This document shows positions 40,252 through 61,539 of a stretch of DNA of 64,000 nucleotides, piece after piece. A program made the position numbers and the translations under genes. Origin of the DNA: Fulvivirga sp. (lineage in GTDB: Bacteria > Bacteroidota > Bacteroidia > Cytophagales > Cyclobacteriaceae); assembly GCA_028280565.1 (NCBI GenBank), contig JANQLQ010000049.1, positions 28,390 through 92,389 on the forward strand. The letters are read 5' to 3'. How positions within the stretch are numbered: position 1 is the stretch's first letter; every line of letters begins with the position of its first letter. The notes under the pieces were generated by a model. The model was not told the origin of the DNA and made no database searches. It was given only the letters and a program-made list of their open reading frames with translations.

Positions 40252-41157
40252 ATGAAAGCGTATAACTTAACTCATCTTAAAGAATTAGAAGCAGAAGCTA
40301 TTTTCGTGATCCGGGAGGTAGCGGCGCAGTTTGAGAATCCAGCCATTCTCTTTTCGGGAGGCAAGGATTCGATCACCGTGGCTCATTTGGCAAGAAAAGC
40401 CTTTTACCCGAGCAAAGTGCCTTTTCCGCTGGTTCATATCGATACCGGTCATAACTTCCCGGAAACTATCGAATTCAGGGATAAATTTATCGAAGAGCTT
40501 GGTGCCGAGTTGATCGTAGGTTCCGTTCAAAAATCGATTGATGAAGGGAAGGCAGTGGAAGAGAAAGGTTACAATGCGAGTAGAAATGCACTTCAAACAG
40601 TAACCCTACTTGAGACTATAGAGAGCAACAAGTTTGACGCCTGTATGGGTGGTGCCCGTAGGGATGAAGAAAAAGCAAGGGCCAAAGAGCGTTTTTTTTC
40701 ACATCGAGACGAGTTTGGACAGTGGGATCCTAAAAACCAACGCCCTGAGCTTTGGAACCTATTCAATGGTAAAAAACATTTTGGAGAGAACTTCCGGGTG
40801 TTTCCCATCAGTAACTGGACAGAAATGGATGTCTGGCAATACATTCTCATGGAAGGAATAGAGCTTCCTTCGCTTTATTTTTCACATGAACGTCCTGTTT
40901 TTGTGAGGGAAGGCGTGATCATGGCAAGCAACGGGATAGTACCACAAAGAGATACGGAAGAGACTGTGACCAAGACCATCCGTTTCAGGACGATAGGGGA
41001 TATGACCTGTACCGGCGCTATCGAATCTACAGCGGCTTCTTTGGAAGATATTATTGAAGAGGTAGCTTCGTCCAGGTTGACGGAACGAGGAACTCGTGCA
41101 GATGACAAACGCTCTGAGGCAGCAATGGAGGATAGGAAAAAACAAGGATATTTTTAA
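40252..41157 (+). CDS. cysD: Sulfate adenylyltransferase subunit 2 CysD
   Basis: A 301-residue PP-loop ATP-pyrophosphatase. LFSGGKDSITVAHLA near residues 33-47 is the PP-loop. PFPLVHIDTGHNFPETIEFRD, FDACMGGARRDEEKARAKER, FRVFPISNWTEMDVWQYI and the C-terminal RGTRADDKRSEAAMEDRKKQ with GYF are all family hallmarks. It forms the ATP sulfurylase with CysN, making APS from sulfate and ATP. The gene is intact and of normal length although both flanking spacers contain inserted cassettes. Its stop TAA (41155-41157) is adjacent to, and shares one base with, the left arm of the second cassette. Confidence 0.96.
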   Translation: MKAYNLTHLKELEAEAIFVIREVAAQFENPAILFSGGKDSITVAHLARKAFYPSKVPFPLVHIDTGHNFPETIEFRDKFIEELGAELIVGSVQKSIDEGKAVEEKGYNASRNALQTVTLLETIESNKFDACMGGARRDEEKARAKERFFSHRDEFGQWDPKNQRPELWNLFNGKKHFGENFRVFPISNWTEMDVWQYILMEGIELPSLYFSHERPVFVREGVIMASNGIVPQRDTEETVTKTIRFRTIGDMTCTGAIESTAASLEDIIEEVASSRLTERGTRADDKRSEAAMEDRKKQGYF

Positions 41158-41183
41158 AATCAGAAATCAGAAATCAGAAATTT
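41157..41183 (+). repeat. Left arm of inverted-repeat cassette (four-helix-bundle element)
   Basis: Three tandem copies of AAATCAG lead into AAATTT. The reverse complement recurs at 41591-41617 with about 23 of 27 positions matching. It starts on the last base of the cysD stop codon. Confidence 0.7.
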
Positions 41184-41219
41184 AGGTTTGCTGGCGATTA
41201 TAAATGATTTTAGGTAACT

Positions 41220-41565
41220 ATGGATCCTAAACAACCTAATTTACAGTTGCGGACTAAAAAATTTGCATTGAATGTTGTTAGGTTATTCAAACTATTACCG
41301 AATAGCACCGAGGCACAAATTTTGGGAAAACAATTGCTACGGAGTGGAACCTCTGTAGGGGCTAATACTCGATCCGCATTTAGAGGGAGGAGTACAAAAG
41401 AATTCAAAGCAAAGATCGGGATTGTAATTGAAGAGGCGGATGAATCCATATTTTGGCTAGAAGTATTAGAAGAATCCGGGACTTTTCAGCATGACCTATA
41501 TTAAAGAACTCATAAAAGAAGCAGAATCATTGGTCTCAATTTTCGTATCCATCATAAAAAAATAG
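41220..41565 (+). pseudogene. Frameshifted four-helix-bundle protein (23S rRNA intervening-sequence family)
   Basis: The first frame (41220-41504) encodes LRTKKFALNVVRLFKLLP, LGKQLLRSGTSVGANTRSA and KIGIVIEEADESIFWLEVL, the hallmarks of the four-helix-bundle family (PF05635, first known from intervening sequences in 23S rRNA). It stops after 94 residues. The normal C-terminal helix continues in the +1 frame from about 41500 (IKELIKEAESLVSIFVSIIK) and ends at TAG 41563-41565. A single indel near 41495-41502 therefore broke the gene. The intact protein would have about 115 residues. The whole unit lies between inverted arms. It is not part of sulfate metabolism. Confidence 0.82.
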
Positions 41566-41590
41566 AAAAGCGAGAATGGCACGTTTTTTC

Positions 41591-41617
41591 ATATTTCTGA
41601 TTTCAGATTTCATATTT
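41591..41617 (-). repeat. Right arm of inverted-repeat cassette (four-helix-bundle element)
   Basis: It reads ATATTTCTGATTTCAGATTT then CATATTT, the inverted partner of 41157-41183. It ends eight bases before the cysN ATG, so any RNA stem formed by the two arms would sit directly against the cysN start. Confidence 0.7.
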
Positions 41618-41625
41618 AAAGCATC

Positions 41626-42912
41626 ATGATACAAGAAAACAATCAACCAGGCGCAAAAGGTTACCTAGATATGGAACTCCTGCGATTCACTACAGCAGGA
41701 AGTGTTGATGATGGTAAAAGTACCTTAATCGGGCGTTTGCTCTATGATTCAAAGTCAATTTTTGAAGACCAGTACGAGGCTATCGAAGAGTCTAGTAAGC
41801 GTAAGGGGGATGAAAATGTCAACCTGGCACTACTTACGGATGGGCTGAGGGCTGAACGCGAACAGGGGATCACCATAGATGTAGCCTATCGCTATTTTGC
41901 TACACCCAAGCGTAAGTTTATCATCGCAGATACCCCGGGTCATATCCAATATACGCGGAATATGGTCACCGGCGCCTCTACGGCTAATTTAGCGCTGATC
42001 CTCGTGGATGCGCGCAAGGGAGTGGTGGAACAAACGCATCGACATACGTTCATTGCGGCCTTGTTAGGTATTCCTCATGTAGTTTTCTGTATCAATAAAA
42101 TGGATCTTGTAGATTACGATGAAGATACTTACAACAAGATCAAGGAAGATATTGAGTCCTTTTCGTCAAAACTTGATGTAAAAGATATTCGCTTCATCCC
42201 CATCAGCGCTCTAAAAGGGGACAATGTCGTGAATGAGTCTGAAAACACGCCATGGTATAAAGGAGGCACTTTGCTCTACCTTTTGGAAAACATTCACATT
42301 GGCAGTGACCATAACCATATAGACTGTCGTTTTCCAGTGCAATACGTCGTTCGGCCACAGTCTGATAAGTTCCATGACTATCGCGGGTATGCAGGTCGTA
42401 TCGCTGGTGGTATTTTCAAACCCGGGGACGAGGTAGTAGTGCTTCCCTCGGGTTTTTCCAGTAAGATCAAAAGCATCGAGACGTATGAAACAGAACTGGA
42501 TGAAGCTTTTGCGCCAATGTCGGTGACCATACAACTCGATGATGATATTGATATCAGCAGGGGAGACATGATCGTACGTGATCATAACAGGCCCCACGTG
42601 GATCAAGACATCGATATTATGCTATGCTGGATGAATGAGCAGGCGTTAATACCCAACGGAAAATATGGCATAAAGCACACTACCAATGATGCCCGGTGCC
42701 TGGTCAAGCACATCCACTACAAAGTGGACATCAATACTTTGCATAGGCTCGAAGAAGATAAAAGCATCAAAATGAACGACATTGCGAGGGTGACATTAAG
42801 AACTACGAAACCGTTGTTTTACGACCGCTATAGCCGCAACCGGATCACCGGAAGCGTCGTTTTAATTGATGAAGGCACTAATGAAACCGTAGCTGCAGGG
42901 ATGATCATATGA
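41626..42912 (+). CDS. cysN: Sulfate adenylyltransferase subunit 1 CysN (GTPase)
   Basis: A 428-residue translation-factor-like GTPase. TTAGSVDDGKSTLIGRLLYD near residues 27-46 is the P-loop, EREQGITIDVAYRYF gives switch I, IIADTPGHIQYTRNM gives switch II (DxPGH), and INKMDLVDYD is the NKxD motif. Two beta-barrel domains follow, ending in RNRITGSVVLIDEGTNETV. It drives APS formation with CysD by GTP hydrolysis. There is no C-terminal CysC fusion; cysC is separate upstream. At 428 residues it is slightly shorter than many CysN proteins but has all motifs. Confidence 0.95.
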   Translation: MIQENNQPGAKGYLDMELLRFTTAGSVDDGKSTLIGRLLYDSKSIFEDQYEAIEESSKRKGDENVNLALLTDGLRAEREQGITIDVAYRYFATPKRKFIIADTPGHIQYTRNMVTGASTANLALILVDARKGVVEQTHRHTFIAALLGIPHVVFCINKMDLVDYDEDTYNKIKEDIESFSSKLDVKDIRFIPISALKGDNVVNESENTPWYKGGTLLYLLENIHIGSDHNHIDCRFPVQYVVRPQSDKFHDYRGYAGRIAGGIFKPGDEVVVLPSGFSSKIKSIETYETELDEAFAPMSVTIQLDDDIDISRGDMIVRDHNRPHVDQDIDIMLCWMNEQALIPNGKYGIKHTTNDARCLVKHIHYKVDINTLHRLEEDKSIKMNDIARVTLRTTKPLFYDRYSRNRITGSVVLIDEGTNETVAAGMII

Positions 42913-42969: not shown

Positions 42970-43432
42970 ATGGTCCGATCAGTCTATATTGACACTTCAA
43001 TAGTAGGCGGATTGTTCGATGATGAATTTCAACTTTGGACAGAGTTGTTCTTTGACGAAGTTCACTCGGGTAATTATAAAGTAGCGGTTTCGGATATTTT
43101 GTTGAAAGAGCTAAGAAGGGCTCCAAGGAACGTTAGGGACTATTTGGACCAGCTTCATAATGATAAAATGGTTACCATTGTACTTAACCGTGATGCTGAA
43201 CAATTGGCGGACCTTATATTTACAGGAAAAAATTGTTGGCCCCAAGAGCCTGGTGGATTGCCAGCACATAGCTACAGCAACAGTACATAACATTGAAGTG
43301 CTAGTAAGTTGGAACTTTAAGCACATTTTTAATCTTGATAAGATAAGATTGTACAATTCGGTAAATTTGCGGGAAGGGTATAGAACTATCGAAATACGGA
43401 CGCCTAGGGAACTTTTACATCATGGGAACTAA
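42970..43432 (+). pseudogene. PIN-domain (VapC-like) toxin gene with frameshift
   Basis: Frame 1 from the ATG at 42970 encodes VRSVYIDTSIVGGLFDDEF (first PIN aspartate) and ILLKELRRAP (glutamate), then derails at about 43213-43219. The rest of the fold continues in the +1 frame: QEKIVGPKSLVDCQHIATA, with the third acidic residue, and VLVSWNFKHIFN. It ends LREGYRTIEIRTPRELLHH at a TAA at 43430-43432. One extra base explains the break. The joined protein would be about 154 residues. Its 3-prime end overlaps a small basic/acidic ORF (43422-43583) by 11 bases, as in toxin-antitoxin pairs. Either the toxin is dead or the frame is bypassed. Confidence 0.75.
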
Positions 43433-61018: not shown

Positions 61019-61539
61019 ATGACCGTTATATTTATGGTATTAGGATCGATTTAGACAGAAATGTTAATGGCCATTCCTTTCTTTCCGGCGAGTAAAAGGA
61101 TGGAGGTCATAAGCCTAATGATCAATAACTTAAAATCTGGCAAAGCCGTACTAGTGCTACTTTGTCACCTTCAACGTTTTAGTAATCCATTATTTAACTA
61201 TAAAAGTCAGCTTAGGGCATTATTCAGTCCATAGTATTGAGTCATGAGTATTGAGTGGTAAGTCCGTAGAGACTGTAGAACTTAGCGTCTAAATTTTACT
61301 ATGAAATGAAAACCTGTTATGCTGTCGGTTCCCTATTTCCCGGCGTTTTTGAGGTGAAAAAGGCCCGTTTGGCCGGAAGCATGGTCTACGGTTGTGGTGC
61401 AACTAATACCCTTCGGAAAGAAAACAAATTTCACTACTTGCCCGTAGCCTACTCAAGACTAAAGACTCACGACTCAATACTTTAACCTAGTAAAGCAGTA
61501 CTAGGCTCACGATACTTCGTATCTGCGTTCTTTCAAAAC
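60747..61539. other. Intergenic region of about 790 bases rich in repeats
   Basis: No gene was seen. It holds repeat copy A, a partial third start of the same repeat near 61151-61175 (CTAGTGCTACTTTGTCACCT), and an inverted-repeat unit without a gene (61233-61481). Several short hairpins occur, for example near 61360-61380. It separates the recycling operon from the LysR-like gene, which is on the opposite strand. Confidence 0.5.
61233..61481. repeat. Inverted-repeat-bounded unit without a gene
   Basis: The left arm (61233-61256, AGTATTGAGTCATGAGTATT then GAGT) and the right arm (61451-61481, ending GACTCAATACT) are inverted and match at about 21 of 24 positions at the outer ends. They enclose 194 bases without an open frame. 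The arms are short tandem runs of GAGTATT-like units, similar in style to the AAATCAG runs at the four-helix-bundle cassette. Confidence 0.55.

Follow-up and report, generated by a model that had tools for sequence, protein, structure and literature searches.

The cysD-cysN spacer of the window, a stretch of 64,000 nucleotides from Fulvivirga sp. to which all positions below refer, holds a broken gene of the four-helix-bundle (23S rRNA intervening-sequence protein, S23) family between two inverted arrays of the heptamer AAATCAG. The element measures 461 nt from array to array. The features of the locus are listed below.

40252-41157, + strand: cysD, the upstream host gene; ORF with NCBIfam match TIGR02039 CysD (E 1.3e-127)
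41155-41157, + strand: TAA stop codon of cysD, whose last base is the first base of the left array
41157-41181, + strand: left arm, 3.6 copies of AAATCAG with 100% matches (TRF); pairing stretch 41154-41181
41220-41504, + strand: four-helix-bundle (23S rRNA IVP / S23) gene, 94 open codons, truncated by a frameshift; PF05635 (E 3.9e-13), TIGR02436 (E 1.5e-18)
41500-41565, + strand: C-terminal helix of the four-helix gene, left as a remnant in another frame, read from the sequence; resembles the C-terminus of the intact ortholog L035
41587-41617, + strand: right arm, 4.4 heptamers with 83% matches (TRF), complementary to the left arm; pairing stretch 41593-41620
41626-42912, + strand: cysN, the downstream host gene; ORF with NCBIfam match TIGR02034 CysN (E 2e-171)

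The best inverted pair (41154-41181 / 41593-41620) is 28 nt long and 86% complementary and starts inside the cysD stop; between the right array and the start of cysN lie 8 bases. A preliminary description of this DNA had placed a frameshifted gene of the 23S rRNA intervening-sequence family between cysD and cysN, flanked by inverted AAATCAG arms, of which the left begins at the final base of the cysD stop codon and the right ends eight bases before cysN; the family matches, the array coordinates and the assignments of both flanking ORFs agree with it. The frameshift, put near 41500, is visible in an ORF that stops at 41504 with the C-terminal helix readable one frame over: the window protein ends in FQHDLY, a point past which L035 continues, and the family match of the gene spans one TAA. 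Two consecutive copies of AAATCAG (at most 2 mismatches) occur six times in the window, where 1.14 would be expected, and four of these lie within the arms. The arm score of the element is 36; of 2880 placements made elsewhere in the loci surveyed, 5 reach 34. PF05635 was the sole family found in the single ORF of the element at E <= 0.001, with the REP-associated Y1 transposase absent at that threshold, and an Rfam search of the window gave no match.

L035, from Fulvivirga imtechensis, occupies the same junction and is the closest named relative found (73% identity in the best segment). Its structure model (pLDDT 94.7) has four helices, and its best PDB matches are 2rld of the S23 family (E 2.4e-6) and 2gsc, Xcc0516 (E 6.4e-3); the model suggests that the protein probably forms an S23 pentamer. 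Lower-ranked matches to Avd of diversity-generating retroelements (8ub7_E, TM 0.74; 4dwl_D, TM 0.75) have weak E values of 0.14-0.16, and at the sequence-profile level no Avd was found at E up to 0.1. A likeness of PF05635 to Avd has already been remarked upon (PMC10053308). The two may have the monomer fold in common; the element differs in holding no reverse transcriptase and no template or variable repeats, and its direct neighbours are cysD and cysN.

The same junction was compared in relatives. CysD matches were obtained in 45 of 58 genomes, and 30 CysD loci were retrieved, from which five without a recognised cysD end and two without cysN in reach were dropped, leaving 23 readable spacers, the window's included. 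Nineteen of them, 11-222 nt long, have neither gene nor hairpin, so that the empty sites for which the preliminary description had proposed to look are the common state. The four-helix gene is present in three: the window, a congener (G002) carrying the same stretch, and a member of another genus (L021). The remaining spacer, from a sister species (CysD 94%), carries a gene-less 78-nt hairpin with like heptamers (fold z -3.81 for the stretch). In total, 11 distinct loci with the gene between cysD and cysN were found, in Cytophagales and Flavobacteriales according to the record titles. The preliminary description would have abandoned its reading had relatives kept this gene without arms; arms score at least 30 at seven of the 11 loci and fall to 22-28 at the other four, a result that goes in part against that reading. 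One copy (L142) belongs to a distant protein lineage with 19-24% identity to the other cysD-cysN copies, and the junction was therefore occupied at least twice. As a check on vertical descent at this junction, identities of CysD and of the four-helix protein were compared, and they are weakly correlated (rho 0.37, p 0.05, from pairs that are not independent).

A survey of arms beside four-helix-bundle genes, also proposed in the preliminary description, was carried out on 166 merged genes with their flanks, taken from 55 loci of named genomes and from genomes of the window's genus and family. Loci L035-L089 were sampled by likeness to the window gene, L090-L119 as top family matches, one per genome, and L120-L187 as the copies of six genomes rich in such genes; metagenome bins make up many of the named loci. 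After exclusion of 22 genes (16 partial, 6 at contig edges) 144 were usable. Arms were called when the complementary arms had a local score of at least 30, with 2880 placements elsewhere in the same loci as control. Ninety-four of the 144 genes are armed, against 13 of the 2880 control placements, and 50 have no arms above the threshold. The repeat period is 7 in 78 of the 94 and 8 in 12; collapsed to 60 distinct sites, period 7 is found in 48 and period 8 in 8, site-collapsed counts being used because recurrent sites repeat orthologs. The armed fractions of usable named loci are 27/32 in Bacteroidota, 2/2 in Nitrospirota, 2/2 in Acidobacteriota, 3/3 in Chloroflexota, 1/1 each in Cyanobacteriota, Planctomycetota and Sumerlaeota, 2/3 in deltaproteobacterial lines, 1/3 in Patescibacteria and 0/2 in Verrucomicrobiota; in the genomes of the window's genus and family the fraction is 54/94. 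A heptamer-armed gene is no curiosity of the window site.

The repeat unit varies from element to element (AAATCAG, AAAGCTG, GATTTGC, GATTGCC, GTGCGGA, GTACCAA, AGACACA and others), yet both arms of any one element match each other. The window's genome (9.05 Mb) contains four four-helix genes, of which L001, L003 and L004 lie above the arm threshold and L002 below it. Copies of an insertion sequence or MITE in one genome would have like terminal repeats; the arms of the first three differ, but these may not be copies of one element, L001 and L004 falling in distant protein clades. L003, between metH and metF (recorded also as L188), is a second broken four-helix gene, with long period-8 arms and a nested inverted pair.

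Armed elements between two genes of one strand were predominantly in sense orientation (60 sense vs 7 antisense, p 1.3e-11; site-collapsed 35 vs 6), and convergent junctions were occupied more often than divergent ones (21 vs 2; site-collapsed 14 vs 1). All of these orientation classes are rough, the simple ORF caller having been wrong at three of the seven cysD-cysN loci with arms (L045, L047 and L173, truly codirectional). The residual spacer of the sense elements has a median of 18 nt. Junctions recur: fadB-fadA was found at 16 loci, fadA-acyl-CoA dehydrogenase at 8, sucB-lpd at 8, metH-metF at 3 (one in the window's genome) and trpG-trpD at 2, the gene names having been verified with NCBIfam on one representative per gene. 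Sites cluster on the protein tree (11 changes vs a shuffled mean of 33.7; 0 of 200 shuffles as low), and fadB-fadA and cysD-cysN each hold more than one protein lineage. Stable RNA genes are neighbours in three cases, namely between two tRNA genes (L039), between tmRNA and tRNA genes (L057) and before the SRP RNA (L088), and an Rfam search of 80 loci out of the set of 166 merged genes placed none (0/80) in rRNA. Family matches were also found in 24 plasmid records; armed elements lie in Planktothrix between drmD and a neighbour with the annotation pglX or mmeI, and in Pseudanabaena between csx2 and cas1, and a Bernardetia plasmid copy has an arm score of 19.

Targeting of stop codons was considered and dropped. 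In half of the sense elements (30/60) the left arm begins no more than 6 nt from the stop of the preceding gene; if elements were placed uniformly in the residual spacer, 28.2 would be expected to do so. Spacers this short thus account for the proximity, and targeted insertion is unsupported. When all armed loci preceded by a sense gene are taken (84), 44 have a left arm starting at this distance, and in 14 the array reaches back into the preceding gene by more than 6 nt.

The protein of intact relatives is under purifying selection (median dN/dS 0.116 over 52 pairs, 51 of them below 0.5, the pairs not being independent). Arms at one site vary in sequence and copy number while the genes remain alike; arms evolve faster than genes. 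In the Planktothrix plasmids, heptamer numbers differ between No.66 and PCC7805 at 96.8% identity over 3.1 kb, and the arrays of NIES-204 and PCC7805 are identical at 99.4% identity; an empty site within the species was not seen, the element being present in all 3 records found. Across sites the arm heptamers follow the protein lineage: the 6-mer likeness of arms of related proteins at different sites is 0.060 vs 0.039 by chance (0 of 2000 permutations), a difference to which base composition and mis-called sites may contribute.

Inverted array pairs were also sought by a content-blind scan of 1.19 Mb, in stretches mostly picked for having four-helix genes. Period 7 gave 12 rows and period 8 gave 6, periods 5, 6, 9, 10 and 11 gave 0, 1, 1, 2 and 0, and shuffles gave 0; a stricter version of the scan retained 2 pairs. 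Twelve of the 18 rows of period 7 or 8 enclose no four-helix gene, and several fill an intercistronic gap. In the window's genome the AAATCAG triplet (3 mismatches) occurs 33 times vs 12 for the reversed pattern, and gene-less inverted AAATCAG pairs of 106-266 nt stand at 10 places; the interiors of some of these are homologous (89% over 102 nt).

A second inverted period-7 pair lies in the window itself at 61233-61263 / 61451-61481, with AGTATTG/AGTCATG units and no four-helix gene, near a gene which we take to be of LysR type. Its 24-base end motif has 51 matches in the genome (3 mismatches) vs 0 for the reversed pattern, and its interior is homologous to L315 (87% over 183 nt) and also to L310, L314 and L316; these matches make the pair a member of a MITE-like family, about 240 nt long, that is dispersed in the genome and ends in heptamers. 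In three loci of the same genome that lie at contig ends or close to them (L252, L255, L265), AAATCAG arrays are followed by a common sequence containing TGGCRTCCGG or something like it; this may be one end of an insertion sequence that landed next to the arrays and was left unassembled. In another chromosome (G106) a triplet of the unit GGAGACC has 170 overlapping matches vs 0 for the reversed pattern, and some of its arrays exceed 10 units.

The predicted RNA fold of 41150-41630 (481 nt) pairs the arms, with a modest z of -1.89 for the whole spacer. Mismatches in the arms of armed elements show no excess of G.U (86) over A.C (104), and in the sense elements A.C is the commoner (42 G.U vs 71 A.C, p 0.008); these wobble counts, read beside a tRNA positive control that is too small (9 distinct tRNAs, 28 pairs counted), go against pairing maintained by selection on the sense RNA and give no support for such selection.

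The nearest known counterpart is the rRNA intervening sequence (IVS). In Coxiella it has a 28-bp terminal stem and tandem heptamers adjacent to the paired ends and is cleaved by RNase III in vitro, and its S23 protein is probably not produced in vivo; for rRNA IVSs the function of the S23 protein is described as unknown and their origin and movement as unclear (PMC4990558). The IVSs of Coxiella and Leptospira share with the window element the S23-family ORF, complementary termini of about 28 nt and tandem heptamers adjoining the ORF start, and at 428-444 nt are close to its 461 nt (PMC4990558). The differences are that the window element lies between protein genes, outside 16S and 23S rRNA, that its heptamer arrays make up both arms, that the design recurs in many operons, and that its stem is a predicted one. 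It is built like an rRNA IVS but is not one by membership, because it is located outside rRNA; the class of elements seems to be a wider one, with rRNA as one of its habitats. The matches listed in our literature search, a search with most subscription journals beyond its scope, include no report of heptamer-armed S23 elements outside rRNA. Cyanobacterial STRRs are intergenic tandem heptanucleotide repeats, from which the window heptamers differ in being inverted and paired around a four-helix gene; among the matches listed (titles and starts of abstracts) none ties STRR heptamers to S23 genes.

We prefer to regard the window element as a decayed copy of a hitch-hiking element that rides on the transcript of its host, a reading to which we give about an even chance. 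In the messenger RNA of cysD-cysN the arms would pair, as predicted by folding, and RNase III would cut the stem there. The four-helix gene would have no promoter of its own and would be expressed from the host operon. The insertion would be tolerated because a cut between two cistrons, like the helix-loop cut in rRNA, should cost the host little, and the protein may recognise the heptamer stem of its own lineage; at the window only arms and a remnant are left because the protein is broken. The sense orientation, the scarcity of divergent junctions, the positions between cistrons or beside stable RNAs and the likeness to the Coxiella IVS argue for this transcript-riding reading, at odds we would call roughly balanced. 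The preliminary description had likewise proposed an IVS-like element in a protein operon; family, paired arms, operon location, empty sites and the arm survey (94/144) uphold that proposal, and the wobble test, which detects no selection on a sense-RNA stem, does not.

The absence of a G.U excess in the arms would suit a second, less probable reading, in which the element is mobile at the level of DNA. The paired arrays would then be the ends of the element, on which, as hairpins or as inverted termini, a recombinase or polymerase acts in trans, the four-helix protein a binding factor, and RNA folding incidental. REPIN/RAYT systems have such a design, a gene flanked by short inverted repeats with shorter gene-less inverted pairs dispersed between genes, and the gene-less hairpins would be non-autonomous in the way that REPINs are to RAYTs. 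The intergenic gene-less pairs scattered through the window's genome, at 10 places and in part with homologous interiors, are a shared feature, and the gene-less majority of the period-7/8 pairs (12/18), found in stretches mostly chosen for four-helix genes, and the tracking of protein lineage by the arms point the same way. The window element differs from REPIN/RAYT in its four-helix bundle in place of a Y1 transposase, in arms that vary between elements and in arrays of period 7-8; unlike known transposon ends, the arms differ within one genome and at one site, and the sole ORF matches PF05635 only. DNA ends alone leave the sense bias of 60 vs 7 unexplained, although a need of expression would explain it. 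The transcript-riding reading is kept ahead of the DNA-level one because it explains habitat and family together.

Repeat drift is improbable. The heptamer arrays would be intergenic microsatellites, their complementarity kept by template switching in replication (quasipalindrome correction), which the four-helix genes merely tolerate or attract. The heptamer numbers that differ between Planktothrix No.66 and PCC7805, the variation of arms at one site beside genes that are alike and the symmetric mismatches of the arms would fit such drift. It is opposed by a period held at 7-8, the tie to one protein family (94/144 vs 13/2880), lineage-linked heptamers and an arm separation of about 400 nt, which is far for template switching. 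That the hairpin sets the CysD:CysN ratio as a host device, with the four-helix protein regulating itself, is highly improbable, since the recurrence of junctions (cysD-cysN at 11 distinct loci, fadB-fadA at 16, sucB-lpd at 8) is outweighed by the 19 of 23 readable spacers in relatives without gene and hairpin, the two distant protein lineages at cysD-cysN, the broken window copy and the varying arms.

The transcript-riding reading can be widened, with considerably less assurance, to the proposal that S23/four-helix proteins are the specificity proteins of widespread selfish elements that live in transcripts. Each lineage would read its own 7- or 8-base unit in the paired arms, gene and arms would move jointly into operon junctions, rRNA IVSs would be copies that landed in rRNA loops, and gene-less heptamer hairpins would be non-autonomous offspring. 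If it is true that the armed gene commonly occupies operon junctions across several phyla, ordinary operons become a place to study the role of the protein and the movement of the element, since relatives offer empty sites for comparison and no ribosomal constraint acts on the site. The S23-Avd likeness and the heptamer repeats would then merge into one question, whether the protein reads the seven-base unit.

Downstream of cysN, two ORFs overlap in different frames (42970-43290 and 43160-43432); they look like a single PIN-like gene, now broken, with a small ORF behind it, which together may be the remains of a toxin-antitoxin pair.
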